A stretch of 48,194 nucleotides of DNA from Oscillospiraceae bacterium. GTDB taxonomy: Bacteria > Bacillota > Clostridia > Oscillospirales > Acutalibacteraceae. The stretch's first letter is position 1; each line of letters begins with the position of its first letter. The stretch lies in contig CADBBT010000008.1 in assembly GCA_902792985.1 (NCBI GenBank), positions 1-48,194 on the forward strand, in the 5' to 3' direction. Below, one piece after another: positions 3,386 to 18,041 of the stretch. Below the pieces are notes generated by a model, which had not been told where the DNA came from, made no database searches, and was given only the letters and a program-made list of their open reading frames with translations. Made by a program: the position numbers and the translations under genes.

Positions 3386-3534
3386 GACCTATTTCTTAAG
3401 ATTTTTACTTTTTTTTATAAAGTTTTTTTACGTTGACATTTGTCGAAAACAGGCGGTCAAAAATCGCCGTGTTTGCCCCTGCGCAGCGACGATTTTTCGG
3501 CGCGAAACGGCACAGAAAATGGTATTTGCAATTT

Positions 3535-3634: not shown

Positions 3635-3690
3635 TGTTTATGGGTGTATGGAAAGGCCGTGTGCGCTGCGGCATTGGCGATCGCGCATTC

Positions 3691-3756: not shown

Positions 3757-6570
3757 TTACTGTTCCGACGGATACTCGCCCTTGCCCGTCACCTTGCGCT
3801 TGATGATCTTGCCCATGCGCTTGAGGGCGTAGGGACCGACGAGCTTCATCATCTCTTCCGCCGTGTGCATATCGGAGCACGCAGGCAGGTCACGGCGCAG
3901 ATGGATCGCGTCAAACTCGCAGCGCGTGGTGCAAAGGCCGCAGCCGACGCACATGTTGAAATCGACGGTTGTCGCGCCGCACTTCAGGCAGCGGGACGCT
4001 TCCGTTTTGATCTGCGCTTCTGTCAGCGGCAGACGCAGGTCCTCAAACGTCTTTCTCGGATCGCCCGGTTTCAGACCCGGCGCCTGACGGGTGGCGTTGT
4101 CATAGGAGTCGATGCGGATGTCGTCCTTGTCGAGCTCGATGAACTTGCGCAGATCGCGGCCGATGGTCAGCGACTGGCCGGGATGCACGAAACGGTTGAG
4201 CGAAACCATACCCTCACGGCCGTCGGCGATCGCGTCGATCGCGAAGCGCGCGCCGTGGAAGATGTCGCCGCCCACAAAGATGTCGGGCTCTGCCGTCTGC
4301 AGTGTGACCGCGTCGGCAACTGCCGTGCCGTTCGGACGCAGTTCCACTTTGCTGCCCTTGAGCAGCTCGCCCCATTCGGCGCTTTGGCCGATCGCCATCA
4401 GCACCTGACTGCACGGCACGGTGATCGTGTCGTTTTCGTCATACTGCGGCGCGAAGCGGTGGTTTTCATCAAATACGCGGGTGCATTTTTTGAATACAAC
4501 GCCCGTGACTTTGCCGTCTTCGGTGAGGATCTCCCTGGGACCCCAGCCGTTGTTGATCTCGATGTTTTCCGCAAGGATCTCGGCGACCTCGTCCTTGGCT
4601 GCCGGCATCTCATCGCGGCTTTCCAGACACAGCATGGTGACCTTGCCGTCGGTGCAGCGCAGCGCGGTACGCGCCACATCGGCTGCCACGTTGCCGCCGC
4701 CGATCACGACCACATCGCCGGAAAGCTTCACGTTGCCGTTCAGGTTGACGTCCTTGAGGAAGGCAACGCCGGACTGCACGCCCGCGGCGTCTTCTCCTGG
4801 CACGCCCGCAAGGCGGCCGCCCTGCAGACCGATGGCCACAAAGAAGCCCTTGTAGCCCTGCGCGCGCAGCTCGTCAAGGGTGATGTCCCTGCCGACTTCC
4901 ACGCCGCATCTGATCTCGGCGCCCATGCTTTCGATCAGCTCGATCTCCTTTTGCAGCACAGCCTTTTCCAGACGGAAGTTCGGGATGCCGTTCATGAGCA
5001 TACCGCCGGGCTTCGCTTCCTTTTCAAAAACGGTAACGGGGTAGCCCTCCGTGCGCAGATACCACGCGGCGGAAAGGCCGGCGGGGCCGGCGCCGATGAC
5101 GGCGATCTTGAAATCGTCCCACTGGTTGCCTTCGCCGTTTTCGCTGGGCACCATGCATTCGTTCGGGTTTTCCAGTTCCCATTGCGCAAGGAATTTTTTG
5201 ATCTCGTCAATGGCAACGGGCTTGTCGATCCTGCCGCGGGTGCACGCGTCTTCGCAGCGGCGGTTGCAGACCGCGCCGCAGACCGCCGGGAACGGGTTGT
5301 CCTGACGGATGAGCTTGAGCGCGTCGGCATAGCGGCCTTCGCCCGCCATTTTGACATAGCCCTGCACGGCAATGTGCGCAGGACACGCGGTCTTGCACGG
5401 AGAGGTGCCGCTGTCGTAGCAGTTGATCTTGTTGGAATCGCGGTAGTTTTTATCCCATTTGTCCTCGCCCCAGACATGATCGTCCGGCAAATCGTGAACG
5501 GGATACATGACTTTGCTGCCGTCCTTTTTGCAAAGCTTCTGGCCGAGCTTTGCCGCACCGGCGGGGCAGACCTCCACGCATTTGCCGCAGGCGACGCATT
5601 TTTCCGTGTCCACATGGGCGCGGTAGGCGCTGCGGCTCATGTTCGGGGTGTTGAACAGCTGGCTGGTGCGCAGACCGTAGCAGGAACCGGCGGAGCAGTT
5701 GCAGATGCCGACGATGCGGTTCGGGCCGTCCAGGTTCGTGATCTGGTGCACATAGCCCTTGCGCTCGGCGCGCATGATGATGTCCATCGCCTCTTCCTTG
5801 GTGATGTATTCCGCGTCCTTGCCGCTTTCCACCAAAAATTCCGCAATGTCGTCCACGCCGATGCACATCTTGCCCTCAATGTCGCCCACACCTTCGCCGC
5901 GCACACGCTGCGCCTTGCGGCAGGCGCAAACCATTTTGCACAGCTTGTGCGATTTGTTGATCCAGTGCGACAGATGCTCCACACTGACGCTCTCGCTCTG
6001 CGGGTCGATGGCCTTTTCCACGGGGATGACGTGCATACCGATGCCGGCGCCGCCCGGGGGAACCAGCTTTGCCGCCAGTTCCAGCGGCTCCTGCGGCGCA
6101 AGGTTGAACATCGTTGCAACTTCGGGGTTCGTGTCGGTGAGGGTCGGGTGTTCGACCATGTATTCGCCGGAGCCGACGACCCATTTCGGGATCCAGTACT
6201 GGATATGCTGGTCGGCGTTGTCGCGGTTCTGCTCCAGGATGCCGATCCAGATCAGGTGGTCAATGATCTTCTGTGCCTCCTGCTCGCTCATGTTGTTGCG
6301 TTCGGCAAGCTCCTTCGTCGTCAGACCGAAGCGGCGCTTTTTGAACGAAAGCAGAAAGAGGACTTCCTCCTTGGTCAGCAGACGGTCGAGGATCCAGAAA
6401 TCCATATGGTTTTCCTTCATGCCGCCGGGGAGCTTGCGGGGGATGGAGTCCGTGATCAGAACGGCAAGCTTTTTGACGAGCTTCGCTTTTTCCGGGTCGG
6501 CGCAATGGTGGCCGTCCACGGGATAGTCCGTCTCATTGACATGGATGTTGGGGTTGACTTCTTTTACCAT
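3757..6570 (-). CDS. Large iron-sulfur flavoprotein, GltD-like NAD(P)H oxidoreductase (paralogue 1)
   Basis: A 937-residue soluble redox protein. The order of parts is: an N-terminal winged-helix-like region (about 65-110); a CACR...CNC Cys-rich segment (about 210-310); a 4Fe-4S motif CVACGKCVEVCP (about 325); a GltD/DPYD-type domain with CKTACPAH and CGAVCNRRCEDAC clusters; an FAD site GAGPAGLSAAW; an NAD(P) site GGGNVAADVA; and a C-terminal ferredoxin motif CVGCGLCTTRC. Proteins with this core (glutamate synthase small subunit, NfnB, DPYD) move electrons between NAD(P)H, FAD and Fe-S clusters. It is the last gene of the minus operon, 11 bases after the ferredoxin reductase-like gene, with an AGAGG ribosome site. 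A full-length paralogue sits at 14913-17693. The partner and substrate are unknown; I infer electron delivery to the flavoenzymes encoded upstream. Confidence 0.85.
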   Translation of the reverse strand: MVKEVNPNIHVNETDYPVDGHHCADPEKAKLVKKLAVLITDSIPRKLPGGMKENHMDFWILDRLLTKEEVLFLLSFKKRRFGLTTKELAERNNMSEQEAQKIIDHLIWIGILEQNRDNADQHIQYWIPKWVVGSGEYMVEHPTLTDTNPEVATMFNLAPQEPLELAAKLVPPGGAGIGMHVIPVEKAIDPQSESVSVEHLSHWINKSHKLCKMVCACRKAQRVRGEGVGDIEGKMCIGVDDIAEFLVESGKDAEYITKEEAMDIIMRAERKGYVHQITNLDGPNRIVGICNCSAGSCYGLRTSQLFNTPNMSRSAYRAHVDTEKCVACGKCVEVCPAGAAKLGQKLCKKDGSKVMYPVHDLPDDHVWGEDKWDKNYRDSNKINCYDSGTSPCKTACPAHIAVQGYVKMAGEGRYADALKLIRQDNPFPAVCGAVCNRRCEDACTRGRIDKPVAIDEIKKFLAQWELENPNECMVPSENGEGNQWDDFKIAVIGAGPAGLSAAWYLRTEGYPVTVFEKEAKPGGMLMNGIPNFRLEKAVLQKEIELIESMGAEIRCGVEVGRDITLDELRAQGYKGFFVAIGLQGGRLAGVPGEDAAGVQSGVAFLKDVNLNGNVKLSGDVVVIGGGNVAADVARTALRCTDGKVTMLCLESRDEMPAAKDEVAEILAENIEINNGWGPREILTEDGKVTGVVFKKCTRVFDENHRFAPQYDENDTITVPCSQVLMAIGQSAEWGELLKGSKVELRPNGTAVADAVTLQTAEPDIFVGGDIFHGARFAIDAIADGREGMVSLNRFVHPGQSLTIGRDLRKFIELDKDDIRIDSYDNATRQAPGLKPGDPRKTFEDLRLPLTEAQIKTEASRCLKCGATTVDFNMCVGCGLCTTRCEFDAIHLRRDLPACSDMHTAEEMMKLVGPYALKRMGKIIKRKVTGKGEYPSEQ

Positions 6571-6581
6571 AGAGATACCTC

Positions 6582-7766
6582 TTATTCGATCGGGATTTTA
6601 ATGGTCAGATCGCTCGTCGGGTAGGCGGCGCAGGCGTGCACATAGCCGAAATCCTTATCGGCGGCACGGCGGCCGTCGTTTTCCGGGCAGACATATACCG
6701 AGCCGGAGAGCACCTTTGTGCGGCAAAAGCCGCATTCGCCGCTGCGGCACGCCGTTTCAATGCGGATGCCGGCGCGCTCGAGCGCAACCACCAGACTTTC
6801 GGTCGCCTTGGCGGGAATCACATCCTCATGGATGCCGCGGCGTACCGTGAGGTTGAACACATGGTTCGTCAGCGCCACGGGGTAGCCGGAAAACTTGGTG
6901 ATGTCCTTCGCCTGACCGAACACTTCAAAGCGCACGCGGCGCGCGGGTGCGCCGAGCTTTTTCAGCTCTTCGCGCAAATACAGATACATCGCCTGCGGGC
7001 CGCAGATGAAGTAGGAGGTGTCGGGTGCGCTGTATTTTTTGATCAGCTCTGCGGAAAGGAAGCCGCGTTCGCCTTTCCAGTCCGGCTCGTCGCCGGAGAG
7101 GACATGGACCACATGGACCTTGTCGCTTTTGAGCGCGTCAAGCTCGTCTTTCAGAATGATGTCGTCGGACGCAACGGAGCCGTACAGGATCGTCAGATCG
7201 AAATCGAGCGTGCCGTTTGCGATTTCCTTGGCCATGGAGGCGAACGGCGTGATGCCGACGCCGCCGGCAAGCGCGACCACATGCTTTGCGTCGCGCAAGG
7301 GTTCATAATAGAACTGGCCGCAGCCCATCATCGCCTGCAGCGTGTCGCCGACCTTCAGCTCGGTGTTGACATAATCGGCAATGAAGCCGTCGCCCTTGCT
7401 GCGGCGCACGGTGATCTCTGCAAAGGAGTTTTCCATGCGCGCTTCGAACGGCGCGGAGGACAGGGAATACGGACGCGAGATGATGCTGTTTCCGATCTTG
7501 AAATCGAGCACGACGAACTGGCCGGCATAAAAGAACGGCAGCTTCTGGCCGTCGGCGCGCACAAAGCGCACGGTTTTGGCCGTGGGGCTCGCGTCGCGGA
7601 TGTCGACGATCTTCACATCGAACTTTTTCGGGTGCCACTGGGCGACCACGTCCGCGATGGGATCGTTCTTTTCGGGAACGGCAGACGCGTTTTCGAAGGC
7701 GCTCAGCCTTGCCTTGGTCACACGGGACGCACCCGTGACGTCTTTCAAAAAGCCTTTGATCTTCAT
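6582..7766 (-). CDS. Ferredoxin-NAD(P) reductase-like protein with C-terminal 2Fe-2S domain
   Basis: A 394-residue electron-transfer protein. It has an FNR-type FAD domain (RPYSLSSAP at about 98), an NAD(P) domain (GGVGITPFASMA at about 169 and FICGPQ at about 253) and a C-terminal plant-type ferredoxin domain with CRSGECGFC (about 337-345) and the fourth ligand in HACAAYP (about 376). This layout is that of PaaE, Hcr and the reductase components of oxygenases, where NAD(P)H electrons go through FAD to the 2Fe-2S cluster and then to a partner enzyme. Its start overlaps the stop of the upstream flavoprotein gene by four bases, which points to that protein (7763-9298) or the isomerase-like protein as the partner. 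The first 40 residues are an extra helical region. No oxygenase is nearby, so an anaerobic reductive role is inferred. Confidence 0.85.
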   Translation of the reverse strand: MKIKGFLKDVTGASRVTKARLSAFENASAVPEKNDPIADVVAQWHPKKFDVKIVDIRDASPTAKTVRFVRADGQKLPFFYAGQFVVLDFKIGNSIISRPYSLSSAPFEARMENSFAEITVRRSKGDGFIADYVNTELKVGDTLQAMMGCGQFYYEPLRDAKHVVALAGGVGITPFASMAKEIANGTLDFDLTILYGSVASDDIILKDELDALKSDKVHVVHVLSGDEPDWKGERGFLSAELIKKYSAPDTSYFICGPQAMYLYLREELKKLGAPARRVRFEVFGQAKDITKFSGYPVALTNHVFNLTVRRGIHEDVIPAKATESLVVALERAGIRIETACRSGECGFCRTKVLSGSVYVCPENDGRRAADKDFGYVHACAAYPTSDLTIKIPIE

Positions 7767-9298
7767 TGGTTCGCCGCCTCCTCTGCTGCCATGGAATCAA
7801 GCACGTTCTTTGCCGCTTTTCTGCCGTTGGTGACCGCCGGGCCCATACCGTCGCCGGAGATCGCGTGCGCGCCGGAGAATTCAAGATGCTTGATGAAGCT
7901 CTCCGCCTCGGCGGTCTGCAGACGAGCGATGATGTGGTCGTCCATCGTGTGCGCATAGCCGTAGATGCAGCCGTTCCATGCGTTCGTGTAGCGATTGATG
8001 GTCATCGGCGTTTCGATGACGATCTCCAGAATGTGATCGAGCAGATTCACGCCGAGATAGGCGGACATATCGTCGATCATCTGTTTCGCAACTTTGTGCT
8101 TGACTTTGTCGTAATCTTCGGCCTTGACCGTTTTCCAGCCGTCCACACGCGGCAGCGTCGTGATGGAATACGAGCAGGTGCCCTGCGGGGTGGCGGTGTC
8201 GTTGCCGAGGTTGTGGCAGATGCAGGTCAGATAGCGGTAGGGGCCGAGACCCGCAAGGTCGCGATACAGCGCGTCGGTGTCCATCGTGTCGCCGCGGAAA
8301 ACGCTGTAATCTTTGATGCCGAGATTTTCGGCGGTATCGTCAAGGATCATGATGACGGAAAACGCCGTCAGGCTCAGCCGGCGGCCGTTGACCATCTTGA
8401 TCGCCTTTGCGGGCACAGCCGAAGGCGGTTCGATCATGGAGGTGTACACCTTGTTCGGATAAGACGAGGAGATGACGTAATCGGCAAAGATCTCGTCGCC
8501 GCGCGCGGTGCGCACACCGTAGGCCTTGCCGTCCTTGACAAGGATCTTATCCACATGCTGGCGGTATTCGATCTGCACGCCCATCGCTTCGGCGCGCTCC
8601 GCCATTTTCAGGCTCATTTCGTGGCTGAACTTGCGCGGGATGTAGGAGCCGTAGCCGACATAGTCCGCCATCAGCACGGAGTAGATCGTGAACGGCAGAT
8701 CGGAAAAGCCGGAGCCGACATAGATCCAGTACGGCGCAAGCAGATCCTGCGCCGCTTTTGGCAGATCGAACGAGTCGATGACCTCTTTCGTGGTGTAGCC
8801 GGCGGTCTTGACAAACGCTTCGTGTTTGAGCAGCATCTGCGCCTTGCTCATCGGGTGGATGGAAAGCTCGTTGACCGAATCGAACACGGTGTTGCAAAGG
8901 TTCAGCAGTCCCAGCACCTTTTCATAAGTGCCGGGCACCACGGCGTCGATCTCTTTGGAAAATGTTTCAAGGCCGGGGTGCAGCGTGACCTCCAGTCCGG
9001 GGAGCGAGGCGTGATACGCTTCGGGCACTTTGAGCCATTCGATGTCCACGCCCATATCGTCAAAGAATTTGCCGACCTTCAGGCGGTTGTCCTTTTCGCC
9101 GATGCTCATCATCTCGTGCAGCGCCGCTTCGATCTCGATGCCGCCGCGCACAAACGAGGACGCGATGCCGCCGGGGAGATTGTGGCGTTCCAGCACCAGC
9201 ACGTCCTTGCCCTTGTCGGCGAGCATGAGCGCCGAAGAAAGACCGGCCAGCGCGCCGCCGATGACGATGACGTCATAATGGTCTTTGTAAAATTTCAT
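7763..9298 (-). CDS. Phytoene desaturase/saturase-superfamily FAD oxidoreductase
   Basis: A 511-residue flavoprotein. The N-terminus carries the dinucleotide-binding motif VIGGALAGLSSALMLA, an acidic ribose-binding LERHNLPGG segment and the downstream GGIEIEAALHEM that is typical of the CrtI/RetSat superfamily. The C-terminus has the closing FAD contact GDGMGPAVTNGRKAAKNV. Members desaturate, isomerise or saturate conjugated polyenes (CrtI, CrtISO, retinol saturase). No carotenoid synthesis gene is near. Next to a fatty acid isomerase-like gene and a reductase, saturation or isomerisation of an acyl-chain double bond is the most economical inference. It starts 63 bases after the isomerase-like gene and overlaps the ferredoxin reductase-like gene by four bases. 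The exact reaction is not shown by the sequence. Confidence 0.75.
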   Translation of the reverse strand: MKFYKDHYDVIVIGGALAGLSSALMLADKGKDVLVLERHNLPGGIASSFVRGGIEIEAALHEMMSIGEKDNRLKVGKFFDDMGVDIEWLKVPEAYHASLPGLEVTLHPGLETFSKEIDAVVPGTYEKVLGLLNLCNTVFDSVNELSIHPMSKAQMLLKHEAFVKTAGYTTKEVIDSFDLPKAAQDLLAPYWIYVGSGFSDLPFTIYSVLMADYVGYGSYIPRKFSHEMSLKMAERAEAMGVQIEYRQHVDKILVKDGKAYGVRTARGDEIFADYVISSSYPNKVYTSMIEPPSAVPAKAIKMVNGRRLSLTAFSVIMILDDTAENLGIKDYSVFRGDTMDTDALYRDLAGLGPYRYLTCICHNLGNDTATPQGTCSYSITTLPRVDGWKTVKAEDYDKVKHKVAKQMIDDMSAYLGVNLLDHILEIVIETPMTINRYTNAWNGCIYGYAHTMDDHIIARLQTAEAESFIKHLEFSGAHAISGDGMGPAVTNGRKAAKNVLDSMAAEEAANQ

Positions 9299-9361
9299 AA
9301 ATTTACCCTCTCTGTTGAAGCAGGAGGGACACTGCTGCCCCTCCTGCCGGCGTTGATTACA

Positions 9362-10750
9362 TTAGAAGAAACGTTCCACAAGCTCACGGGAGTATTCCGC
9401 GGTCTCGTCCATATCGCCGAAGCTCATGATCTCACCGGCGTAATAGGTGTCATACTTGCCCTGCATCGCTTCCACTTTCTCATACCAGCCCGCCGCATAG
9501 TCTTCGGAGAAGACATGGGGGAAGTAATAGACGCTCCATTCGTTGATGACGTTGGAAGCGGGGTTGTGCATGGTCTTCAGATCGTCGAGGACCATCTTCT
9601 TGCAGGTCTCATACGGGATCTCCGCGCTGTTCTTGTGCTTACGCAGCGAATAGGTGGTGATGACCTGATCCTTCGTGTCCTTCCAGCGGCGATAGTACAC
9701 CATCAGATGGCCGAGCTTTTCGGGCACCATGTTGTCGAACACATAGTAGGAGATCTCCGGATGATCCTCCGGCTTGGTCTCCACGGCAAGCACGTCGTAG
9801 CGCTCGTAGTCGATCTTGGAGAACAGATCCTTTTCGTCCTGGCGGGCGTCGAAATAATCCACCATGCCGATCTGGCCGTCCGCACGCTTGTTGGGAATGT
9901 ACAGCGGCGCGGTGACGATGATCTTATCGTATTCTTCGACCTGGCCGTTGACGGTGACATAGACCTTGCCGTCCTTGCGCTCGACCTTTTCGATCTTGCT
10001 GTTCAGGCGGGCGGGGTTCTTCAGATGATCGTTCAGGCTTTCCCAGATGAACTGGGTGCCGTTCTTCCAGGTCCAAAGGTTGACCTTGACGAAGTTCATC
10101 GTGGTCTGGAAGTCCAGATATTTCAAAACATACGCTGCGGGGATCTCATCGAAATAGCCGTAACCGAAGGAGGTGTAGGGTCCGATCCAGACGTCCTGCG
10201 TCAGTTCGACGCCGTTCTTTTTGCAAAATTCGTTGAACGGCAGCGCAAGATCTTTCAGGTTCGGGTTCACGCCGGAGATGGGTTCACGCTTTGCGCTCTT
10301 TTGCGAAAAGCCTTCAAAACGGCCTTCGGAAACGCCGCGGTGACCGTTGACGTCATAGCCCTGATACTTGGTCTCCAGCAGTTCGCCGAGCTTTTTGATC
10401 TGCTTTTTCATTTTCAGCAGACGCGGAATCTTGAGGATGTTCTTTTTGGGCTCGAACGGCTCAATGACATTGCCTCTGCCGTCTTTGTAGTTGCGGTTGA
10501 GTTTCGGACCGTCGTGGGTGATGCCGCAGAACTCCTCCACGTCGTGCACGGCGTAGTAGGAAGGCACGCCCATGATGGCGCCCATTTCATAGCGTCTGCC
10601 GTTGTAATGCGGGGACCAGCATTTGCCGCCCACGCGGTCAAGACGTTCGAGAATGGTGTAGTTGGTGTAGCCCTTCTGCTCGAGATACATACCGGCGGAA
10701 AGACCGGCAGGGCCGCCGCCGACGATGCAGATGCGGATGTTTTTGTCCAT
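9362..10750 (-). CDS. Polyunsaturated fatty acid double-bond isomerase-like flavoprotein (PAI family)
   Basis: A 462-residue FAD protein. The motif IVGGGPAGLSAGMYLEQ (about 9-25), then ILERLDRVGGKC and GRRYEMGAIMGVPSY, and later AAYVLKYLDF, LWTWKNGTQ, YYFPHVFSEDY.AGWYEKVE.MQG and YAGEIMSFG, agree in order and wording with what I remember of the Cutibacterium acnes polyenoic fatty acid isomerase. That enzyme converts linoleate to trans-10,cis-12 conjugated linoleate with FAD. This protein is about 38 residues longer than the 424-residue PAI, partly through an insert at about residues 138-160. It is the first gene of the minus operon, with a strong GGAGG site and a consensus promoter. Substrate specificity could differ from PAI, and the substrate may be carrier-bound given the acyl carrier genes divergent from it. 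Confidence 0.8.
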   Translation of the reverse strand: MDKNIRICIVGGGPAGLSAGMYLEQKGYTNYTILERLDRVGGKCWSPHYNGRRYEMGAIMGVPSYYAVHDVEEFCGITHDGPKLNRNYKDGRGNVIEPFEPKKNILKIPRLLKMKKQIKKLGELLETKYQGYDVNGHRGVSEGRFEGFSQKSAKREPISGVNPNLKDLALPFNEFCKKNGVELTQDVWIGPYTSFGYGYFDEIPAAYVLKYLDFQTTMNFVKVNLWTWKNGTQFIWESLNDHLKNPARLNSKIEKVERKDGKVYVTVNGQVEEYDKIIVTAPLYIPNKRADGQIGMVDYFDARQDEKDLFSKIDYERYDVLAVETKPEDHPEISYYVFDNMVPEKLGHLMVYYRRWKDTKDQVITTYSLRKHKNSAEIPYETCKKMVLDDLKTMHNPASNVINEWSVYYFPHVFSEDYAAGWYEKVEAMQGKYDTYYAGEIMSFGDMDETAEYSRELVERFF

Positions 10751-11051
10751 ATAAATGCCTCCGTAAAAATTGGTATGGATAATTCTTGCCGCTTTCTATT
10801 ATACCGCTTGTAAATTCAAAAATCAACAATAAAATTAGGAATGATTAAATTTGATGAAAAAATTTGTCAAGGCAAGCAGTTCGGCAACAGATGTCGAAAA
10901 GCTCTTTTTCGGAAAAGCGACATTTTTTTGTTTTTGCATATTATCCGGTGCGGCAGCAGCCTTTTTCCCGTTCGCTCTTTCTTTTTTCTTTGCAGTATGT
11001 TAAAATATATGAAAGCAATCACTCAGCCGTGACGCTCAAGGGGGTACACAT
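10751..11051. other. Divergent control region of the fatty-acid/flavoprotein locus
   Basis: The 301 bases separate the two operons. They hold a strong minus-strand promoter (10798-10826), a weaker plus-strand -10 candidate TAAAAT at 11001-11006 with no clear -35, and the AAGGGGGT ribosome site of the acyl ligase gene. They also hold a dyad ATGTCG (10891-10896)/CGACAT (10918-10923) followed by seven T residues. The dyad could be an operator or a plus-strand terminator/attenuator. No small gene is evident. Confidence 0.6.
10798..10826 (-). promoter_or_regulatory. SigA-type promoter of the isomerase operon
   Basis: On the minus strand TTGATT (10821-10826) and TATAAT (10798-10803) are 17 bases apart. 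The predicted transcript start is about 40 bases upstream of the isomerase-like start codon. Confidence 0.8.
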
Positions 11052-12395
11052 ATGCGCTTTGCGTCGTTTGAAGAACTGCTGCGCCATTTTGCGCAAACAA
11101 CACCCGAAGCGCCCGCGCTCTGTTTTGAGGCGCACGGAGAAAAACAAACGCGCTCTTTCGCCGCGTTTTACGGCGATGTCTGCGCCCGCGCCGCAGTACT
11201 GGAAAAGAAAAGCTTTACCTGTCTCGGCGTTCTTTGCGACGGCTCGTTTGCCTGCGTCACAGAGATCTTTGCCGCTGTCAAAGCCGGCAAGCAGCTGGTG
11301 CTGCTGAACGAGGACTGCACGCCCGAACAGCTTGCCGCCGCGGACGCGGACGCGCTTTGGGGCGATGCGGAGCTGACAGAGGAGCTTTCGCCCGCGCTGA
11401 CAGGCGGCGTGACAGACGGCAGGGGCAAGCTGCTGTTTTTCACCTCGGGCACCACGGCGAAAAACAAGGCCGTGGTTTTGACCGAGCAAAGCCTTTGCAG
11501 CAGCGCGTTCAACGGCGGCGCGCTTCTGCCGCTGAAAAACGATGATGTGCTGCTGTGTATGCTGCCGCTCGACCATGTGTTCGGCTTTGTGTGCGGTCTG
11601 CTCTGGGGGCTTTCGTGCGGGGCGTGCGTTGCGCTGGGCAGAGGGCCGCGCCATTACTTTGACGACTGCACCTTCTTTGCGCCCACAGCGCTCTCTGCTG
11701 TGCCGCTGCTGCTGGGCTTTTTGCTGCAAAAAAATCTGCTCGGCTCCACGCTGCGGCTGGTGCTCATCGGCGCCGGCGACTGCCCGCAGGCGATCCCCGG
11801 CGCGCTGAAAGCAAAGGGCGTCCGCGTTTCGTTCGGCTACGGGCTGACGGAGACAAGCTCCGGCGTGGCGCTTTCGCTCGGCGACGACCCCTACGCCATG
11901 ACGGTCTGCCCGGACGACGAGATCACGCTCGACGCCGACGGGGAGATTTTGATCAAAGCCGACACCTGCATGATGCAGGGCTACTATAAAGACAAAACAG
12001 CCACTGCCGCAGTGCTGCAAAACGGCGTGCTGCGCACCGGCGACCTGGGCGCGTTCGATGCACAGGGTCTGCTGCACATCCGCGGCAGAAAAAAAGAGAT
12101 CCTCGTGCTGCGCGACGGCACAAAGATCTTTTTGCCGGAATATGAAGCGGCGCTGCAGCCGCTGCTGCCGGGGCGCGATTTTGCCGTGACGGAACAAAGC
12201 GGCGCACCGGTGCTGATGATCTTCGGCGAAGAAAGCGAACGCGAAACGCTCACCCGCGCGCTGGAAGGCCACATGCGCACACTGCCGCGCGGGCAGCAGC
12301 TCAAAACCATCCGATTTGTCAACTCTCCGCTGCCGCGCACGGCAACGGGTAAAATCAAGCGTTGGTCGATCCAACAGAAAGAGGAAGCAACATGA
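11052..12395 (+). CDS. AMP-forming acyl ligase (acyl-CoA/acyl-ACP synthetase)
   Basis: A 447-residue member of the ANL adenylating superfamily. Visible core motifs are FFTSGTTAKNKAVVLT (A3, about 129-144), YGLTET (A5, about 263), RTGDLG (A7, about 328), GRKKEILV (A8) and PRTATGKIKR (A10, with the catalytic Lys, about 428-437). It should activate a carboxylic acid as acyl-AMP and pass it to a thiol. It is shorter than usual (500-550 residues), mainly at the N-terminus. The gene overlaps the acyl carrier protein gene by four bases (ATGA), which suggests that the thiol acceptor is the carrier and not free CoA. It is the first gene of the plus operon. The acid is not identifiable; a fatty acid is likely given the thioesterase and the divergent isomerase-like gene. 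Confidence 0.85.
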   Translation: MRFASFEELLRHFAQTTPEAPALCFEAHGEKQTRSFAAFYGDVCARAAVLEKKSFTCLGVLCDGSFACVTEIFAAVKAGKQLVLLNEDCTPEQLAAADADALWGDAELTEELSPALTGGVTDGRGKLLFFTSGTTAKNKAVVLTEQSLCSSAFNGGALLPLKNDDVLLCMLPLDHVFGFVCGLLWGLSCGACVALGRGPRHYFDDCTFFAPTALSAVPLLLGFLLQKNLLGSTLRLVLIGAGDCPQAIPGALKAKGVRVSFGYGLTETSSGVALSLGDDPYAMTVCPDDEITLDADGEILIKADTCMMQGYYKDKTATAAVLQNGVLRTGDLGAFDAQGLLHIRGRKKEILVLRDGTKIFLPEYEAALQPLLPGRDFAVTEQSGAPVLMIFGEESERETLTRALEGHMRTLPRGQQLKTIRFVNSPLPRTATGKIKRWSIQQKEEAT

Positions 12396-12637
12396 CCAGA
12401 CAGGACATCATGAACAAAACGATCGAGATCGTCTATGAGTGCGTACCGGAGATCGAGGGGCAAACGCTGGAGGAAAGCACGGTCATCAACACCGACACCG
12501 GCATCGATTCCATGGGCTTCACGCTCATCATCTGCCGACTGGAGGCAGCGTTCGATGTGAAGATCCCCGACCGCCAGTGGAAAAAGCTCTATACCCTCGG
12601 CGACGTGGTCACGGCGATCGAAAAGAGACTGAAATAA
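12392..12637 (+). CDS. Acyl carrier protein
   Basis: An 81-residue acidic helical protein with the phosphopantetheine attachment site in DTGIDSMGF (Ser40). The start is the ATG at 12392 that overlaps the stop of the acyl ligase gene, preceded by GAGGAAG. It would carry the acyl chain as a thioester. The pairing with a ligase on one side and an acyl-ACP thioesterase on the other suggests a dedicated carrier and not the main fatty acid synthesis ACP, which usually sits with fab genes. Confidence 0.9.
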   Translation: MTRQDIMNKTIEIVYECVPEIEGQTLEESTVINTDTGIDSMGFTLIICRLEAAFDVKIPDRQWKKLYTLGDVVTAIEKRLK

Positions 12638-12639
12638 AG

Positions 12640-13353
12640 ATGGAACCCTACCGCAAAACCTACCGCATCCTCGCCTCGGACACCGACTGCTTCCGCCGCC
12701 TGCGATTGAGCCGTTTGTTCACCTTTTTGCAGGAGGCCGCCATCGCGCACACGGAAGCGCTCGGCATGGGCCGCGCGATGACGCTCGACAAAGGGCTGCT
12801 CTGGGTCGTGACGCTGCAGCAGGCAAAGATCACGCGGCTGCCGGAATATGACGAACGCGTGACCCTCACGTCGCTGCCGGGCGAAACGATGCACACCTTT
12901 TTCCCGCGCTATTACCGTTTGACCGACGAAAACGAAAACGAGCTCGTGAACGCGTCGGCGCTTTGGGCGCTGATGGACTGCAAAACGCGCAAAATGGTCT
13001 TTCCCGAACAGCACGGCGTGCACATCGAAGGAGAAAACCCGCCGTGGAGCTCGTTTTTGCCGCGCCCGCCGAAGCTGCCGGAAGAAGCGCAGGAAAGCGC
13101 ATTCACCGTGCCGTACAGCTATGTCGATCTCAACGGCCACATGAACAACACGCGCTACTTCGACCTTGCCGAAGATCTGCTGCCGCAGGAAATGCGCGGC
13201 AAAGCTGTGCGCGAGATCCTGACCGAATACACCGGCGAAGCAAAAACGGGCGAAACGCTGCGCCTTGCGCTGAGCGTCAAAGACGGCGAAGTGCGCCTTT
13301 CCGGCACGGGACAAAAGCGGCTGTTCCGCATCTCCATGCAATATGACAGGTGA
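12640..13353 (+). CDS. Acyl-ACP thioesterase (FatA/FatB-like, double hotdog)
   Basis: A 237-residue protein that matches bacterial acyl-ACP thioesterases. The N-terminal hotdog begins with YRILASDTDCFRRLRLSRLF and contains the LLWVVTLQQAKITRLP strand. The second hotdog contains VDLNGHMNNTRYFD (about 162-175), the Asp-Asn-His catalytic block of this family. The reaction is release of a free fatty acid from acyl carrier protein. The start is the ATG two bases after the carrier stop codon. Together with the ligase and carrier it would form a load-and-release cycle. No fatty acid synthesis gene is present, so the acyl chain is probably an imported acid and not a newly made one; this is inference. 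Confidence 0.85.
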   Translation: MEPYRKTYRILASDTDCFRRLRLSRLFTFLQEAAIAHTEALGMGRAMTLDKGLLWVVTLQQAKITRLPEYDERVTLTSLPGETMHTFFPRYYRLTDENENELVNASALWALMDCKTRKMVFPEQHGVHIEGENPPWSSFLPRPPKLPEEAQESAFTVPYSYVDLNGHMNNTRYFDLAEDLLPQEMRGKAVREILTEYTGEAKTGETLRLALSVKDGEVRLSGTGQKRLFRISMQYDR

Positions 13354-13358
13354 TACCG

Positions 13359-14030
13359 ATGGACTATAAGATCATAGAAACCAAAGAGCGTGTGCAGGCC
13401 GATAACGAAAAAGCCGCCGCGCTTACCAGAGAACAACTGAAACAAAGCGGCGCGCTGCTTGTGAATCTGATGGGCTCCCCCGGCGCGGGCAAAACGACCA
13501 CGCTGCTGCAGCTCATCCGGCGGCTCGGCAGCGACTATCGCATCGGCGTGATGGAGGCCGACGTGGACTCCGACGTGGACGCGAAAACGATTGCCGAAAC
13601 AGGCACGCGCGTCATCCAACTGCACACAGCGGGACTGTGCCACATGGACGCGGATATGACGATGCGCGGACTCGACGCGCTGCAGACAGACGGGCTGGAC
13701 CTGATCTTTTTGGAAAACATCGGCAACCTCGTCTGCCCGGCGGAATTCGAGATCGGCGCCGACGTGCGGCTGATGCTGCTTTCCGCGCCCGAGGGCGACG
13801 ACAAGCCGCTGAAATATCCGCTGATGTTCCAGATCAGCGACATCTGCCTGCTGACCAAGATCGACACGGCGGCCGTGTTTGATTTTGACAAAGAAAAAGC
13901 CACGGCGCGTGCCAAAGCGCTCAACGAAAAGCTGACGGTGATCCCGGTCTCGGCCGTCACCGGCGAAGGCTATGACGCGGCGGCGGCGCTGCTCCGGGAA
14001 AAACTGGACGCGAGGAGGAACGCACAATGA
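13359..14030 (+). CDS. hypB: HypB-type nickel-insertion GTPase (first copy)
   Basis: A 223-residue SIMIBI-class GTPase. The P-loop is GSPGAGKTT (39-47), and the metal site of the G domain is preserved: CHMDA (Cys94-His95) and NLVCPAE (Cys126). The N-terminal CxxCGC high-affinity nickel motif and His-rich stretches of some HypB proteins are absent. HypB delivers nickel to hydrogenase with HypA, driven by GTP. The ATG at 13359 is chosen over an in-frame GTG at 13350 because AGGTG lies six bases upstream. It follows the thioesterase gene by five bases and overlaps the second copy by four. No hydrogenase genes are in the window, so the client is unclear. Confidence 0.85.
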   Translation: MDYKIIETKERVQADNEKAAALTREQLKQSGALLVNLMGSPGAGKTTTLLQLIRRLGSDYRIGVMEADVDSDVDAKTIAETGTRVIQLHTAGLCHMDADMTMRGLDALQTDGLDLIFLENIGNLVCPAEFEIGADVRLMLLSAPEGDDKPLKYPLMFQISDICLLTKIDTAAVFDFDKEKATARAKALNEKLTVIPVSAVTGEGYDAAAALLREKLDARRNAQ

Positions 14031-14677
14031 AGATCATTGAACTCGGCGCGTCTGTGACCGCGTCCAACGACCGCGACGCCGAAGCTTTACGCGCAAGGTT
14101 AAAAGCGCAGGGCATTTTGCTTGTCAACGTCATGAGCGCGGCAGGTTCGGGCAAAACGACGCTGCTCTCGCGCATCATCCGGGACATGGACGATCTGCGC
14201 TTTGCCGTGCTCGAGGCAGACATCGCCTCGGATGTGGATGCAAAAGCGATCGAAGCGCTCGGCGCAAAAGCGGTGCAGGTCCACACGGGCGGCATGTGCC
14301 ACATGGACGCGGGCATGACTGCCGCGGCGTTTGATGCGCTGGAAACAACAAACATCGACATCGCCTTTCTTGAAAACGTGGGCAATCTGATCTGCCCGGC
14401 GGAATACGACACCGGCGCTTCGCTCAAGCTGATGATCCTCTCCGTGCCGGAGGGCGACGACAAGCCGCTGAAGTATCCGCTGATGTTCGCCGAAAGCGAC
14501 ATCCTCGTGATCTCCAAGACCGACGCCCTGCCCTATTTCAATTTTGACGTTGCAAAATGCACCGCCCGCGCAAAAAAGCTGAACCCGGCAATCAAGGTCT
14601 TCCCCGTTTCGGCAAAGACCGGCGATGGCATGGCGGCGCTGGAGGCGGAGCTGCACAAAGCGCAATGCGCTTTGTGA
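14027..14677 (+). CDS. hypB: HypB-type GTPase (second, divergent copy)
   Basis: A 216-residue paralogue of the preceding gene. Cys91-His92 (MCHMDAGMT) and Cys123 (NLICPAE) of the metal site are kept. The P-loop reads SAAGSGKTT (37-45), so the first Gly of the usual GxxGxGK pattern is Ser; the Lys and Thr that contact phosphate remain. It starts within the stop codon of the first copy (ATGA). HypB works as a dimer, so the pair could form a heterodimer; alternatively each copy serves one of the two large iron-sulfur flavoproteins. Both ideas are inference. It is followed by 235 bases of repeat-like intergenic sequence before the next gene. Confidence 0.8.
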   Translation: MKIIELGASVTASNDRDAEALRARLKAQGILLVNVMSAAGSGKTTLLSRIIRDMDDLRFAVLEADIASDVDAKAIEALGAKAVQVHTGGMCHMDAGMTAAAFDALETTNIDIAFLENVGNLICPAEYDTGASLKLMILSVPEGDDKPLKYPLMFAESDILVISKTDALPYFNFDVAKCTARAKKLNPAIKVFPVSAKTGDGMAALEAELHKAQCAL

Positions 14678-14912
14678 GCAATTCGCAATGAGCAATGCGC
14701 AATTGAGGTCGCGGGAAGCGATGGCAAACCTTTGAACGAAGCAACCGCGACGAAAAGAGCCTTTCACTTTTATACCCGTAGATTTTTATATATCCGTAGT
14801 TTTTAAAAACCATCTTTTCCACAACATTTCGGCGCATCGCGCTTTGCGCGGCGCCCCATAATTCCGAATTCATAATTCCGAATTCAGAATTCGTATAAAA
14901 GGAGTTGTAAAA
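14678..14912. repeat. Repeat-rich spacer between hypB2 and the second flavoprotein gene
   Basis: This spacer contains short direct repeats (GCAATTCGCAATGAGCAATGCGCAATTG type), an inverted pair GTCGCGG (14708-14714)/CCGCGAC (14745-14751), and AATTCCGAATTCATAATTCC-type repeats up to 14903. An AAGGAG ribosome site of the downstream gene is at about 14899. The part starting AATTGAGGTCGCGGGAAGCGATG vaguely resembles the left part of the two-hairpin element. An internal promoter may lie in the AT-rich 14769-14815 stretch, but I see no convincing match. Confidence 0.5.
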
Positions 14913-17693
14913 ATGAAACAGCAAAAAAACCGTATGTTCAATGAGCGCGACTTCGTGCAGGATCCGAATTACGTTGCGCCCGACAAGGAAAAGGAGGCGC
15001 TCGTGCTCAAGCTCGGCACGATGATCACCGACCGTTACCTTGTCAAGTACACCCGTTCCATGAAGACCGACGACCCCGAATACTGGGCGCTGGACGAAGT
15101 GCTCACCAAGGACGAGGTCAAGTTCCTGCTCAGCTTTGAAAAGACCCGCGTGCCCTACACGCCTGAGCAGATCGCCGAGCGCAGCGGCCTTTCCATGGAA
15201 GAAACCAAAAAGATGATCGACCACCTGTGCTGGGTCGGCGTTTTGGAGATGACCCGCGAGGGCGAAAACAAGGAAAAGCACTACAATGTGCCCATCTTCG
15301 TGCCCGGCTCGGCAGAGTTCATGATGATGAACGACGAGCTGACGGCCCAGCATCCCAACCTTGCGACCTTCTTCAACCTGATGACGCAGATGCCGCTGGA
15401 AAACATCACCCAGATGGTGCCGCCGGGAGGCGCGGGCGTCGGCATGCATGTCATCCCCGTGGAAAAGGCGATCGAGCACGAAAACAATTCTGCCCCGGTG
15501 GAGCACATCTCCCACTGGCTGAAAAAGTATGACAAATATTCCGTCGGTCAGTGCACCTGCCGCAAGCAGCAGACCATGCGCGGCGAAGGCAGCGGCGAGA
15601 TCAACGGAGAGTTCTGCATGGGCGTGGGCGACATGGCGGAATACTGCGTGGACCGCGGCATGGGACGCTACATCACCTATGATGAAGCGATCGAAATTTT
15701 GGAGCGCGCGGAGCGTCACGGCTTTGTGCACCAGACCACGAACATCGACGGCGAGGACAAGATCGTCGCCATCTGCAACTGCGCGCCCGGCGTGTGCAAC
15801 GCGCTGCGCACCAGCCAGCTTTATAACACCCCGAACATGAGCCGCAGCGCGTATCGCGCCCATGTGGAAAAAAGCAAGTGCGTCGCCTGCGGAAAATGTG
15901 TGGAGGTCTGCCCCGTCGGTGCGGCAAAGCTCGGCCAAAAGCTCTGCACCAAGCACGGCGAACAGAAATATCCGCTCTCCGAGCTGCCCAACGGCACCAA
16001 ATGGGGCGCCGACAAATGGAACCCCAACTACCGTGAGGACGCGAAGATCAACTGCTATGACACCGGCACGGCGCCGTGCAAAACCGCCTGCCCGGCCCAC
16101 CTTGCCGTGCAGGGCTATGTGAAGATGGCCGCCGAGGGACGCTATCTTGACGCGCTCAAGCTCATCAAGCAGGACAATCCCTTCCCGGCCGTTTGCGGCG
16201 CGGTCTGCAACCGCCGCTGCGAAGACGCCTGCACCCGCGGCACGGTCGATGCGCCGATCGCCATCGACGAGATCAAAAAGTTCATCGCCGCGCAGGAGCT
16301 GCACGCCGACAAGCGCTTTGTGCCGATCTGCGAAAAGGACGACGGCGGCATGTGGGGCCCGGATTATAAAATGGCCATCATCGGCGGCGGACCGGCCGGC
16401 CTTTCCTGCGCATATTATCTGCGCACGCGCGGCTATGATGTGACGGTGTTTGAAAAAGAGCAGCGCCCGGGCGGCATGCTTGTTTACGGCATTCCGAACT
16501 TCCGTCTGGAAAAGGATGTCATCGACGCCGAGATCGACGTGCTGCGCCAGATGGGCGTGGAGTTCCGCTGCGGCGTGGAGGTCGGCAAGGACGTGACGAT
16601 CCAGTCGCTGCGCGAAGAGGGCTACAAGGCGTTCTATCTTGCCATCGGTATGCAGGGCGGACGCAAAGCCGGCGTGCCCGGCGAGGACGCCAAGGGCGTG
16701 CAGTCCGGCGTGGAATTCCTGCGTGACATCAACGCCGACAGCAAAAAGAAGCTGAAGGGCGACGTGGTCGTCATCGGCGGCGGCAACGTCGCGGTGGACG
16801 TTGCGCGTTCCGCGGTGCGCGCAACGAACGGCAAAGTGACCATGCTCTGTCTGGAGGGCGAAAACGAAATGCCGGCGGCGGACGACGAGGTTGCCGAAGC
16901 GAAGGCGGAGGGCATCACCGTTTGCAACGGCTGGGGCCCGAAGGAAATTCTCACGAAAAACGGCAAAGTGGTCGGCGTGGTGTTCAAAAAATGCGTGCGC
17001 GTCTTTGACGAAAATCACCGCTTTGCGCCGCAGTATGACGAAAACGAAACGATCACGATCGACTGCGCAAATGTTTTGCAGGCCATCGGTCAAAGCGCCG
17101 TCTGGGGCGATCTGCTCAAGGGCACCAACGTCCAGCTCAAGCCCAACGGCACGGTCGACCACGACCCGCTGACCTTTGAAACGGCGGAGCCCGACATCTT
17201 TGTGGGCGGCGACATCGGCCACGGCGCACGCTTTGCGATCGACGCGATCGCAGACGGCAAAAAGGGGTGCGAGAGCATGCACCGCTCCGTGCACGAAGGC
17301 CAGTCGCAGCGCATTGCCCGCGACAAGCGCGAATTCATCGAGCTTGACAAGGACGACATCATTCTGGAATCCTTTGACAACGCAAAGCGCCAGGTGCCCG
17401 GACACAAGGCCGGCAAGGCGACGGAGACGTTTGAAGATCTGCGTCTGCCGCTGACGGAGGAACAGGTCAAGATCGAAGCCGCGCGCTGCCTCGGCTGCGG
17501 CGCAACGGTCGTTGACATCAACCGCTGCGTGGGCTGCGGTCTTTGCACAACGCGCTGCGAATTCGACGCGATCCACCTGAGCCGCGATCTGCCGGAATGC
17601 ACAAACATGATCCGCTGCGAAGACAAGCTGCTCAAGGTCGGTCCCTACGCCCTCAAGCGCATGGGCAAGATCGCGCTCGGCAGAAAGAAGTAA
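14913..17693 (+). CDS. Large iron-sulfur flavoprotein, GltD-like NAD(P)H oxidoreductase (paralogue 2)
   Basis: A 926-residue paralogue of the protein at 3757-6570, collinear over its whole length. It has the helix-turn-helix-like N-terminal region, CTCRK (about 213) and ICNC (about 289) cysteines, the 4Fe-4S motif CVACGKCVEVCP (about 323), the GltD-type cluster domain (CKTACPAH at about 388 and CGAVCNRRCEDAC), FAD site GGGPAGLSCAYY (about 490), NAD(P) site GGGNVAVDVA (about 621), and the C-terminal CLGCG...CVGCGLCTTRC (about 858-878). It sits between hypB2 and hypA, three bases before hypA. It probably passes electrons from NAD(P)H through FAD and several Fe-S clusters. Why the locus keeps two is unknown: different donors, different acceptors, or a heteromer. 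Confidence 0.85.
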   Translation: MKQQKNRMFNERDFVQDPNYVAPDKEKEALVLKLGTMITDRYLVKYTRSMKTDDPEYWALDEVLTKDEVKFLLSFEKTRVPYTPEQIAERSGLSMEETKKMIDHLCWVGVLEMTREGENKEKHYNVPIFVPGSAEFMMMNDELTAQHPNLATFFNLMTQMPLENITQMVPPGGAGVGMHVIPVEKAIEHENNSAPVEHISHWLKKYDKYSVGQCTCRKQQTMRGEGSGEINGEFCMGVGDMAEYCVDRGMGRYITYDEAIEILERAERHGFVHQTTNIDGEDKIVAICNCAPGVCNALRTSQLYNTPNMSRSAYRAHVEKSKCVACGKCVEVCPVGAAKLGQKLCTKHGEQKYPLSELPNGTKWGADKWNPNYREDAKINCYDTGTAPCKTACPAHLAVQGYVKMAAEGRYLDALKLIKQDNPFPAVCGAVCNRRCEDACTRGTVDAPIAIDEIKKFIAAQELHADKRFVPICEKDDGGMWGPDYKMAIIGGGPAGLSCAYYLRTRGYDVTVFEKEQRPGGMLVYGIPNFRLEKDVIDAEIDVLRQMGVEFRCGVEVGKDVTIQSLREEGYKAFYLAIGMQGGRKAGVPGEDAKGVQSGVEFLRDINADSKKKLKGDVVVIGGGNVAVDVARSAVRATNGKVTMLCLEGENEMPAADDEVAEAKAEGITVCNGWGPKEILTKNGKVVGVVFKKCVRVFDENHRFAPQYDENETITIDCANVLQAIGQSAVWGDLLKGTNVQLKPNGTVDHDPLTFETAEPDIFVGGDIGHGARFAIDAIADGKKGCESMHRSVHEGQSQRIARDKREFIELDKDDIILESFDNAKRQVPGHKAGKATETFEDLRLPLTEEQVKIEAARCLGCGATVVDINRCVGCGLCTTRCEFDAIHLSRDLPECTNMIRCEDKLLKVGPYALKRMGKIALGRKK

Positions 17694-17696
17694 GCC

Positions 17697-18041
17697 ATGC
17701 ACGAGATGGGGATCGTTTTGCACCTTGCAAAAACGCTGGACGAGACCGCCGCGCAGGAGCATCTGACAAAGATCGGCAAGGTCGTTTTGCAGGTCGGCGA
17801 GGTGTCGGGCATCATGACCGACCTGTTCACCGACGCGTGGGACTACTTCAAAGGCCGCCATCCGGTGCTCAAGGACAGCGAGCTGGTGCTGGAACAAATT
17901 CCGGCCGTGACCTACTGCGACAACTGCAAGGGCACCTATGAGACCGTCAAATACGGCAAGGAGTGCCCGTTTTGCCACAGCGGCGAGACCTGGCTGCTGA
18001 AGGGAAACGAGTGCATCATCAAGGAGATCGAAGCGGAATAA
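17697..18041 (+). CDS. hypA: HypA-like nickel metallochaperone
   Basis: A 114-residue protein that begins MHEMGI, the Met-His-Glu nickel-binding N-terminus of HypA. It contains two zinc-knuckle pairs, CDNC (about 80) and CPFC (about 97). HypA hands nickel to hydrogenase with HypB. It starts three bases after the second flavoprotein gene, so the two are surely co-transcribed. The length is normal for the family. The sequence around the second pair ends in an acidic tail. In this locus there is no hydrogenase large subunit, endopeptidase, HypC, D, E or F, so it either acts on a hydrogenase encoded elsewhere or on a new client in the operon. Confidence 0.9.
   Translation: MHEMGIVLHLAKTLDETAAQEHLTKIGKVVLQVGEVSGIMTDLFTDAWDYFKGRHPVLKDSELVLEQIPAVTYCDNCKGTYETVKYGKECPFCHSGETWLLKGNECIIKEIEAE

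Follow-up and report, generated by a model that had tools for sequence, protein, structure and literature searches.

A divergent eleven-gene locus of an Oscillospiraceae bacterium as a probable anaerobic system for biohydrogenation of polyunsaturated fatty acids

Eleven genes of an Oscillospiraceae bacterium, arranged as two divergent operons, probably encode an anaerobic system for the biohydrogenation of polyunsaturated fatty acids (PUFA). They occupy positions 3757-18041 of the window, i.e., the whole stretch of 48,194 nucleotides that was analyzed. The reading is based on the identity of the genes, the fold of a PAI-type isomerase and the conservation of its presumed active-site residues, a recurrent six-gene cassette, the co-occurrence of IsrA in the same genomes, and the cysteine pattern of the IsrA-like proteins.

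Organization of the locus and identity of its products

All eleven genes were found open and intact, in two tightly packed divergent operons read from one control region as proposed in the first-pass annotation:

3757..6570, minus strand: IsrA-like Fe-S flavoprotein A, 937 aa; candidate diene reductase from domain and cysteine evidence
6582..7766, minus strand: FNR-type reductase with C-terminal 2Fe-2S domain, 394 aa (Pfam/NCBIfam); likely electron donor of the saturase-like protein
7763..9298, minus strand: CrtI/CrtISO/retinol-saturase-like FAD protein, 511 aa (Pfam/NCBIfam)
9362..10750, minus strand: PAI-type polyunsaturated fatty acid isomerase, 462 aa (profile, fold, pocket residues)
10751..11051, no strand: divergent control region, 301 nt, between isomerase and ligase
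11052..12395, plus strand: AMP-forming acyl ligase, 447 aa, presumed acyl-ACP synthetase (Pfam/NCBIfam)
12392..12637, plus strand: dedicated acyl carrier protein (ACP), 81 aa from ATG (Pfam/NCBIfam)
12640..13353, plus strand: acyl-ACP thioesterase (TE), 237 aa (Pfam)
13350..14030, plus strand: HypB1, nickel GTPase, 226 aa, GTG start (TIGR00073, 211.9 bits, cut-off 121.2)
14027..14677, plus strand: HypB2, nickel GTPase paralogue, 216 aa (Pfam cobW/HypB/UreG)
14913..17693, plus strand: IsrA-like Fe-S flavoprotein B, 926 aa; domain and cysteine evidence
17697..18041, plus strand: HypA nickel metallochaperone, 114 aa (Pfam HypA, 98 bits, cut-off 29)

The close spacing described earlier was also recovered, with 4-nt overlaps at FNR/saturase, ligase/ACP, TE/HypB1 and HypB1/HypB2 and remaining gaps of 2, 3, 11 and 63 nt inside both gene runs, the exception being 235 nt ahead of IsrA-like B. 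For the ACP, the most likely start codon is ATG 12392 (81 aa) and not the mechanically called TTG 12362. Four promoter-like sites were found in the control region against 0.9 expected, and a sigma-70-like match directed toward the isomerase lies at 10798-10826 on the minus strand (TTGATT-17-TATAAT, 10/12). A known RNA element at the locus was rejected, as no Rfam family reached the gathering threshold across the whole window, and a pattern search for a flanking repeat, run with a poorly guessed pattern, gave no match. The family names first given to the products agreed with Pfam and NCBIfam, HypB2 being assigned by the Pfam scan only and HypA, although over the Pfam cut-off, scoring 67 bits against the 88 required for the NCBIfam HypA equivalog.

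According to profile and fold comparisons, the isomerase is closely related to Cutibacterium acnes PAI and lies nearer to 2b9w than to amine oxidases; the earlier designation as PAI-like can be sharpened to a genuine PAI type. Its profile match to 2b9w had an E-value of 5.6e-179 (next match 2.3e-14), and its model superposed on this structure with TM 0.86/0.94 at 50% identity, the next best fold being 16% identical. Both proteins are of similar length save for an insertion at about residues 137-166. The equivalents of Arg88, Phe168 and Phe193 of PAI, which we take to be substrate-site residues, were kept as R86 in 11/12, F195 in 12/12 and F220 in 12/12 aligned proteins (hand numbering from the alignment). 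Recent lateral spread was rejected as the origin of the high isomerase identity, since synonymous sites were far diverged (pS 0.72 vs pN 0.07 for L082), and so was plasmid-borne spread, relatives being present on only three plasmids, at 24-28% identity.

By its profile scores, the saturase-like protein is a superfamily relative only of the CrtISO/CrtI carotenoid enzymes, as it fell under both NCBIfam cut-offs (TIGR02730, 104 of 587 bits; TIGR02734, 88 of 238 bits). The FNR is its likely electron donor.

The IsrA-like proteins A and B are 63% identical. They had initially been described as Fe-S flavoproteins supplying NAD(P)H electrons in the manner of GltD; their Fe-S flavoprotein nature and NAD(P)H-type domains stood, but both resemble IsrA in architecture and HypA/HypB context, which makes them candidates for C=C reduction and not only electron suppliers. 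Protein A consists of an N-terminal domain with CxC motifs, Fer4, DPD-II Fer4_20, Pyr_redox_2 and a C-terminal Fer4, and the IsrA order (Fer4, DPD-II Fer4_20, Pyr_redox_2, C-terminal Fer4; about 900 aa) was found in it and in a distant homologue (L166). Cysteines C323-C333, C428-C440 and C859-C882 were kept in 17/17 aligned rows. Among the additional N-terminal cysteines, which include two CxC motifs, C214, C216 and C235 were kept in 17/17 rows and C288, C290 and C295 in 16/17, the exception (L073) having a gap at that place; these six residues would form a putative six-cysteine site as in the clade 9 IsrA homologues of PMC10134865. Confidence in the structural model is modest (mean pLDDT 66) and too low in the N-terminal domain to judge cysteine geometry, and only the GltD/Nfn/DPD part was matched among the 50 matches listed in the fold search. 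In the available text, IsrA is presented as a putative conjugated-diene (isoprene) reductase, perhaps acting on terpenes (PMC10134865).

Conservation of the cassette and its association with IsrA and HypA/HypB

Conservation was assessed at the best 80 of 455 isomerase relatives in species genomes, a locus being eligible when enough flank had been fetched. The divergent order thioesterase-ACP-ligase/isomerase-saturase-FNR was complete in 58/61 such loci of these best 80 of 455. In the same best 80 of 455, the saturase adjoined PAI in 76/76 eligible loci, the FNR lay on the isomerase side in 72/72, and ligase, ACP and TE were present in 70/74, 70/74 and 65/69, respectively. The six genes were also together in 8/15 neighborhoods fetched from genome samples and, at 42-61% identity, in genome G621, where no IsrA was found within the 16 kb fetched. 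Three further saturase loci (L150, L156 and L157; 31-50% identity) had the FNR after the saturase in each case inspected. Elsewhere the parts were scattered or partly missing: G321 carries one PAI by itself and another with ligase-ACP-TE only, G368 a PAI by itself and G420 a PAI fragment only, while three distant PAI loci of the class sample were found without the cassette.

Thirteen other genes of the window served as controls at the best 80 of 455 loci. The five within about 10 kb of the isomerase recurred in 1, 1, 0, 0 and 0 of 80; the other eight recurred in 0-3 of 80 and are weak controls, being partly or wholly outside the 10-kb flanks. Neighboring GDSL genes, each at 1/80 of the best 80 of 455 loci, seemingly stand outside the system. 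For the eleven genes, dN/dS was 0.07-0.22 against L053 and 0.08-0.38 against the more distant L072, apart from 0.53 for IsrA-like B, which was probably paired there with another paralogue. Judged by low dN/dS, the cassette in dozens of genomes and controls that rarely recur, the locus is more than a chance arrangement.

IsrA was inside the fetched flank in 54/80 PAI loci of the best 80 of 455. Of the 26 loci lacking it there, 25 belong to genomes with IsrA elsewhere (E 1e-100), which brings the total to 79/80 when flank and genome searches are combined. In the order sample (E 1e-150), IsrA was present in 6/6 PAI-positive vs 8/339 PAI-negative genomes (Fisher 1.3e-9, kinship ignored), and among 59 relatives in 5/5 vs 7/54. 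IsrA is therefore not strictly tied to PAI, as 7/54 relatives and 8/339 order members carry it without PAI; genome G054 has a stand-alone IsrA-HypB-HypB-HypA set. Among eight distant PAI-like genes (24-32% identity; class and phylum samples), seven sit with IsrA and HypA in a different layout, with no saturase in the fetched 20 kb, and the eighth (G753) has no IsrA nearby. The one such protein checked still had 2b9w as its best solved structure (E 9e-42).

From these comparisons, the gene set falls into two parts, a six-gene cassette that hardly varies and a separable IsrA-HypA/HypB module, the latter being sited elsewhere in the genomes of many species. The first-pass annotation had proposed one complete pathway and named gene conservation in related genomes as its check; the six-gene cassette does stay together, mostly in ruminant-gut anaerobes, whereas the module is separable and the parts are scattered in G321 and G368. 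Among the titles of the best 80 of 455, read by eye, a ruminant host appears in 31/80 and a further 33 belong to RUG isolates, giving 64/80.

HypB1 and HypB2 are 54% identical. A role of HypA/HypB as a hydrogenase maturation set was rejected, since neither a [NiFe]-hydrogenase large subunit (PF00374) nor HypD (PF01924) was found in the bacterium's own genome (89% complete); hence HypA/HypB probably serve something else. Although first described as orphans, they are to be expected beside IsrA homologues, as a 2023 publication had already linked the two (PMC10134865): in the available text, Kronen et al. give 73% and 56% as the shares of 988 IsrA homologues with HypA and HypB nearby, respectively. 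Within the fetched flanks of the best 80 of 455 PAI loci, HypA was present in only 24/80 and HypB in 21/80, indicating that the cassette does not generally come with its own nickel supply.

Proposed pathway and alternative readings

We infer the substrate, the order of steps, the division of labor, the use of the carrier, the nickel and the products as follows. Starting from linoleate or alpha-linolenate, whose cis,cis double bonds are methylene-interrupted, the PAI relative would form a conjugated diene with the help of its FAD. This product would most likely be of the trans-10 type, because the C. acnes enzyme makes a product of that type; trans-11 is also possible. The ligase would activate the acid and transfer it to the dedicated ACP, either ahead of isomerization or following it; the first of these, as initially proposed, is only one possible order, and C. 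acnes PAI works on free acids. Electrons from NAD(P)H would reach the saturase-like flavoprotein through the FNR (FAD, 2Fe-2S) and, in the IsrA-like enzymes, would pass from FAD along a chain of 4Fe-4S clusters to the six-cysteine site, where nickel may be inserted by HypB and HypA. In the likeliest split, the conjugated diene would become a monoene through reduction by the IsrA-like enzymes, in the way that isoprene has been proposed to yield methylbutene, and the saturase-FNR pair would perform another reduction or a cis/trans isomerization by reduced flavin. The thioesterase would then free the more saturated acid for excretion, and the cell would benefit from the removal of toxic PUFA and the disposal of electrons.

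A less probable but serious alternative keeps the pathway and assigns all C=C reduction to the saturase-FNR pair, the IsrA-like proteins being a separate diene (terpene) reductase or redox hub merely present in the same anaerobes. Indeed, saturase (76/76) and FNR (72/72) are the most constant neighbors of PAI in the best 80 of 455 loci, where IsrA is in the flank of 54/80 only, and the FNR also follows the saturase in L150, L156 and L157, as expected of an enzyme and its reductant. Such an alternative sits poorly, however, with IsrA in the genome at 79/80 of the same best 80 of 455 loci vs 8/339 PAI-negative genomes, and with the seven of eight distant PAI-like loci where IsrA and HypA are present and the fetched 20 kb showed no saturase.

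A biosynthetic use, in which a special conjugated or trans fatty acid would be made for the cell's own lipids or for secretion and the saturase-like protein would be a desaturase or isomerase, appears unlikely. Ligase, ACP and thioesterase would suit a small acyl-modifying pathway and CrtI-type enzymes are often desaturases, but the FNR accompanies the saturase at every eligible locus of the best 80 of 455, which points to reduction, and PUFA are abundant where most hosts live. Besides, an IsrA-type cluster has been linked to diene reduction in the available text of PMC10134865 and PMC12509576. Least probable, by a further step, is another polyene as substrate (terpenoid, carotenoid fragment or plant unsaturated acid) instead of linoleate or linolenate. 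Isoprene, and perhaps terpenes, are the substrates put forward for IsrA (PMC10134865, available text), and the saturase-like protein is a member of the superfamily of carotenoid enzymes, its 104 bits for TIGR02730 lying far under the 587-bit cut-off; against this, the PAI relative is specifically near a fatty-acid isomerase (50% identity, kept pocket positions), and acyl chains are the business of a ligase, an ACP and a Fat-type thioesterase.

Relation to known systems and significance

C. acnes PAI is known as a lone isomerase whose product stops at conjugated linoleate, and we know of no reductase set of this kind accompanying it; in the present locus, by contrast, the isomerase is embedded with ligase-ACP-thioesterase, saturase-FNR and IsrA. 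In the saturation system of Lactobacillus plantarum, PUFA are isomerized and the product is reduced to a monoene via hydration by oleate hydratase, so that PUFA isomerization and reduction would be common to that system and the pathway proposed here. To our knowledge, the two have no enzyme in common. Hydratase-type saturation, relying on an enzyme of the CLA-HY type in the L. plantarum set (CLA-HY, CLA-DH, CLA-DC and CLA-ER; names from the available text of PMC13365329), was rejected for this bacterium, as no oleate/linoleate hydratase (PF06100) was found in its own genome (89% complete).

The isr operon of Acetobacterium wieringae comprises IsrA, two HypA, HypB and a ferredoxin, and shares with this locus a flavoprotein of about 900 residues with Fe-S clusters, the same domain order, two CxC motifs, extra cysteines and HypA/HypB neighbors; in the available text it is without isomerase, saturase, acyl ligase, ACP and thioesterase (PMC10134865). 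Conversely, IsrA and HypB paralogues are each present twice among the eleven genes, which include no separate ferredoxin gene. PAI homologues (40% identity cut-off) have been reported in 7/228 rumen MAGs, including Lachnospiraceae and Oscillospiraceae, by a study that sought lipases and isomerases and that, in its available text, mentions no reductases and describes no cluster (PMC10019597). The claim that the gene set is undescribed holds in part: no account of the combined system was found in the literature searched, a weak negative as most subscription journals and preprints were outside its scope, but both the occurrence of PAI in rumen MAGs and the connection of IsrA with HypAB are already in print.

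Rumen biohydrogenation has been known in cows for decades, its enzymes and main bacteria being largely unidentified. It sets the saturation of milk and beef fat, and one of its intermediates, the trans-10,cis-12 form, lowers milk fat. The main biohydrogenating species are still called unknown in the available text of PMC6037716, and among 28 rumen species tested only C. acnes gave trans-10 products, although it was judged unlikely to be the sole or main one in vivo (PMC7339423, available text). A cassette conserved in many uncultured ruminant-gut Clostridia provides marker genes, candidate organisms and enzymes, including candidate reductases. For the orphan IsrA family it also suggests a possible acyl-chain substrate, and for the otherwise unexplained HypA/HypB a possible target.

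Two divergent runs of genes

The divergent organization proposed by the first-pass annotation was borne out, with eleven genes, all intact and assigned to families using Pfam and NCBIfam, forming two runs at 3757-18041 of the window:

Minus strand: PAI-like isomerase (PAI being the polyunsaturated fatty acid, PUFA, isomerase of Cutibacterium acnes), saturase-like FAD protein, FNR with 2Fe-2S, IsrA-like Fe-S flavoprotein A
Plus strand: acyl ligase, ACP, acyl-ACP thioesterase (TE), HypB1, HypB2, IsrA-like B, HypA

A 4-nt overlap is seen at four adjoining gene pairs, and spacers of 2-63 nt separate most of the others. The start of IsrA-like B lies 235 nt from the end of HypB2, and this gene may have its own promoter. 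Purifying selection acts on all eleven genes, as illustrated by dN/dS values of 0.07-0.22 against a related locus (L053). Just outside the block and flanking it, inverted copies of a 146-bp element, 87% alike (3525-3670 and 19796-19941), possibly represent a small dispersed mobile element that is not part of the eleven-gene set. Arrays of a CTGTTCC-like 7-nt unit were also observed at 32580-32692, 36470-36589, 41170-41338 and 43090-43230.

Conservation of the six-gene cassette

When the isomerase alignment was run against the species-genome collection, 455 relatives were obtained, of which the best 80 were used for the following counts. A ruminant host appeared in 31 of the 80 titles and a RUG isolate name, which we take to designate rumen uncultured genomes, in 33 more, while 16 had neither (by eye). 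Among the loci of this set with enough flank, the saturase was found in 76/76, the FNR in 72/72, the ligase and the ACP each in 70/74 and the TE in 65/69, and the divergent TE-ACP-ligase/PAI-saturase-FNR order was complete in 58 of 61 (exceptions: L098, L105 and L109). Five control genes less than about 10 kb from the window isomerase recurred in 1, 1, 0, 0 and 0 of the 80 loci, and eight farther ones, which the fetched flanks would cover only in part or not at all, in 0-3. Two contigs bearing cassette genes are titled Sphaerochaetaceae (L067, L105), reflecting either transfer or wrong binning. Besides, a tandem gene pair with a mutual similarity of 59% over 209 residues is located at 1026-3385 of the window (minus strand), the longer gene encoding a GDSL lipase/acylhydrolase with an fn3 domain. 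Relatives of both genes adjoin the cassette in genome G004 (L038, L053), but on the opposite side, and none was found in any other of the 80 loci.

In the genome samples, the six genes stood together in 8 of the 15 neighbourhoods fetched, i.e., four of the window's own genus, G272, G106, G372 and G621. The latter keeps the cassette at 42-61% identity, adjoined by a TetR-type regulator. Its congener G420 retains the saturase, FNR, IsrA, HypA and HypB, whereas the isomerase and thioesterase were found as fragments only. G321 carries one PAI alone, another with ligase-ACP-TE only, and the saturase-FNR pair on a separate contig; in G368, a PAI was present and the other cassette genes were not found nearby.

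Isomerase, saturase and IsrA-like proteins

A profile built from 12 isomerase homologues matched the C. acnes PUFA isomerase structure 2b9w at E 5.6e-179, the next chain being at 2.3e-14. The predicted structure (pLDDT 78) was superposed on 2b9w with a TM of 0.94 (0.86 by query length), an rmsd of 2.7 and 50% identity, compared with an identity of 16% for the second-best fold. Positions that presumably form the substrate site of PAI are conserved in the alignment. An insertion at about residues 137-166, found in the window isomerase and most relatives and absent from 2b9w and the L046 protein, is a possible candidate for ACP docking. The isomerase is unusually conserved, and its pS of 0.72 with a pN of only 0.07 against locus L082 points to constraint, not recent transfer, as the source of the high identity.

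The saturase-like protein falls far short of the curated carotenoid family cut-offs. A stand-alone saturase-FNR pair was found in all three further loci examined, at 49-51% identity in G321 and 31-38% in G366 and the window's own genome:

G000:C30:6764-9482 (L156, in the own genome): an additional saturase-FNR pair, with identities of 32% and 38%

That the saturase is so constantly paired with a reductase speaks for a reaction that is reductive or uses reduced flavin. Plant CRTISO catalyzes a redox-neutral isomerisation that depends on reduced FAD, and an analogous reaction would fit the saturase-FNR pairing.

IsrA-like A and B are 63% identical; their C-terminal two thirds resemble Nfn/GltD/DPD, and they possess, in addition to the 4Fe-4S cysteines, six further conserved cysteines including two CxC motifs. 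In length, domain order and both sets of cysteines, they agree with the description of IsrA, a putative isoprene reductase of Acetobacterium wieringae (PMC10134865). The same paper proposes the six-cysteine cluster as a possible nickel site and lists DUF5692 among frequent neighbours; of its 988 IsrA homologues, 73% are reported to have HypA nearby and 56% HypB (PMC10134865). An IsrA-type cluster is also reported in strains reducing isoprene or 1,3-butadiene (PMC12509576). Neither a [NiFe]-hydrogenase large subunit nor HypD was found in the own genome (89% complete).

IsrA lies inside the fetched flank in 54 of the best 80 isomerase loci, and 25 of the 26 other genomes carry it elsewhere (whole-genome search, E 1e-100 or better); HypA (24/80) and HypB (21/80) are less constant. 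In the order sample, where the isomerase, IsrA and saturase searches are taken from their handles to cover the same 345 genomes, the isomerase occurred in 6. IsrA (E 1e-150) was found in 6/6 of these versus 8/339 others, and a saturase with 50% identity or more in 5/6 versus 0/339 (Fisher tests uncorrected for kinship, 1.3e-9 and 1.5e-10, respectively), 12 further genomes having saturase relatives of 28-33% identity only. Among 59 relatives, IsrA was present in all 5 with a full-length isomerase and in 7 of the remaining 54; 19 others were matched by a short FAD-binding motif only. Hence, PAI is nearly always accompanied by IsrA, which also occurs without PAI; in G054, for example, IsrA is grouped with HypA and two HypB genes.

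Distant PAI-like genes (24-32% identity) were found in three class-sample genomes (G583, G638, G664) and five phylum-sample genomes, with IsrA and HypA in 7/8 and HypB in 5/8. The sole protein tested, from L050, had 2b9w as best solved relative (E 9e-42). This layout also includes a DUF5692 gene (Pfam check of L165 and L166) and, beside the PAI-like gene in L048-L050 and L165-L169, a roughly 350-aa open frame with a helix-turn-helix in the one checked (L166); both may belong to the distant version of the system. In G753, DUF5692 was present and IsrA was not found in the fetched 20 kb. The recurrence of this pairing in a second operon of different build is the strongest indication that the isomerase and IsrA share a substrate.

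A candidate PUFA hydrogenation system

Taken as a whole, the gene set is probably a dedicated system for PUFA isomerisation and hydrogenation, with much less confidence in the assignment of steps to particular reductases. The ligase, ACP and thioesterase genes would imply carrier-bound intermediates. PAI and the association of IsrA with HypA/B are already known. Among the literature matches listed, nothing joined these with saturase-FNR and ligase-ACP-thioesterase genes, and the window system would therefore be a further version of microbial fatty-acid biohydrogenation. It is built of different enzymes from the hydratase-based route of lactobacilli; a search of the 89% complete own genome found no member of the hydratase family used in that route. 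Two purposes are plausible for such a system, namely the removal of toxic PUFA and the disposal of electrons.
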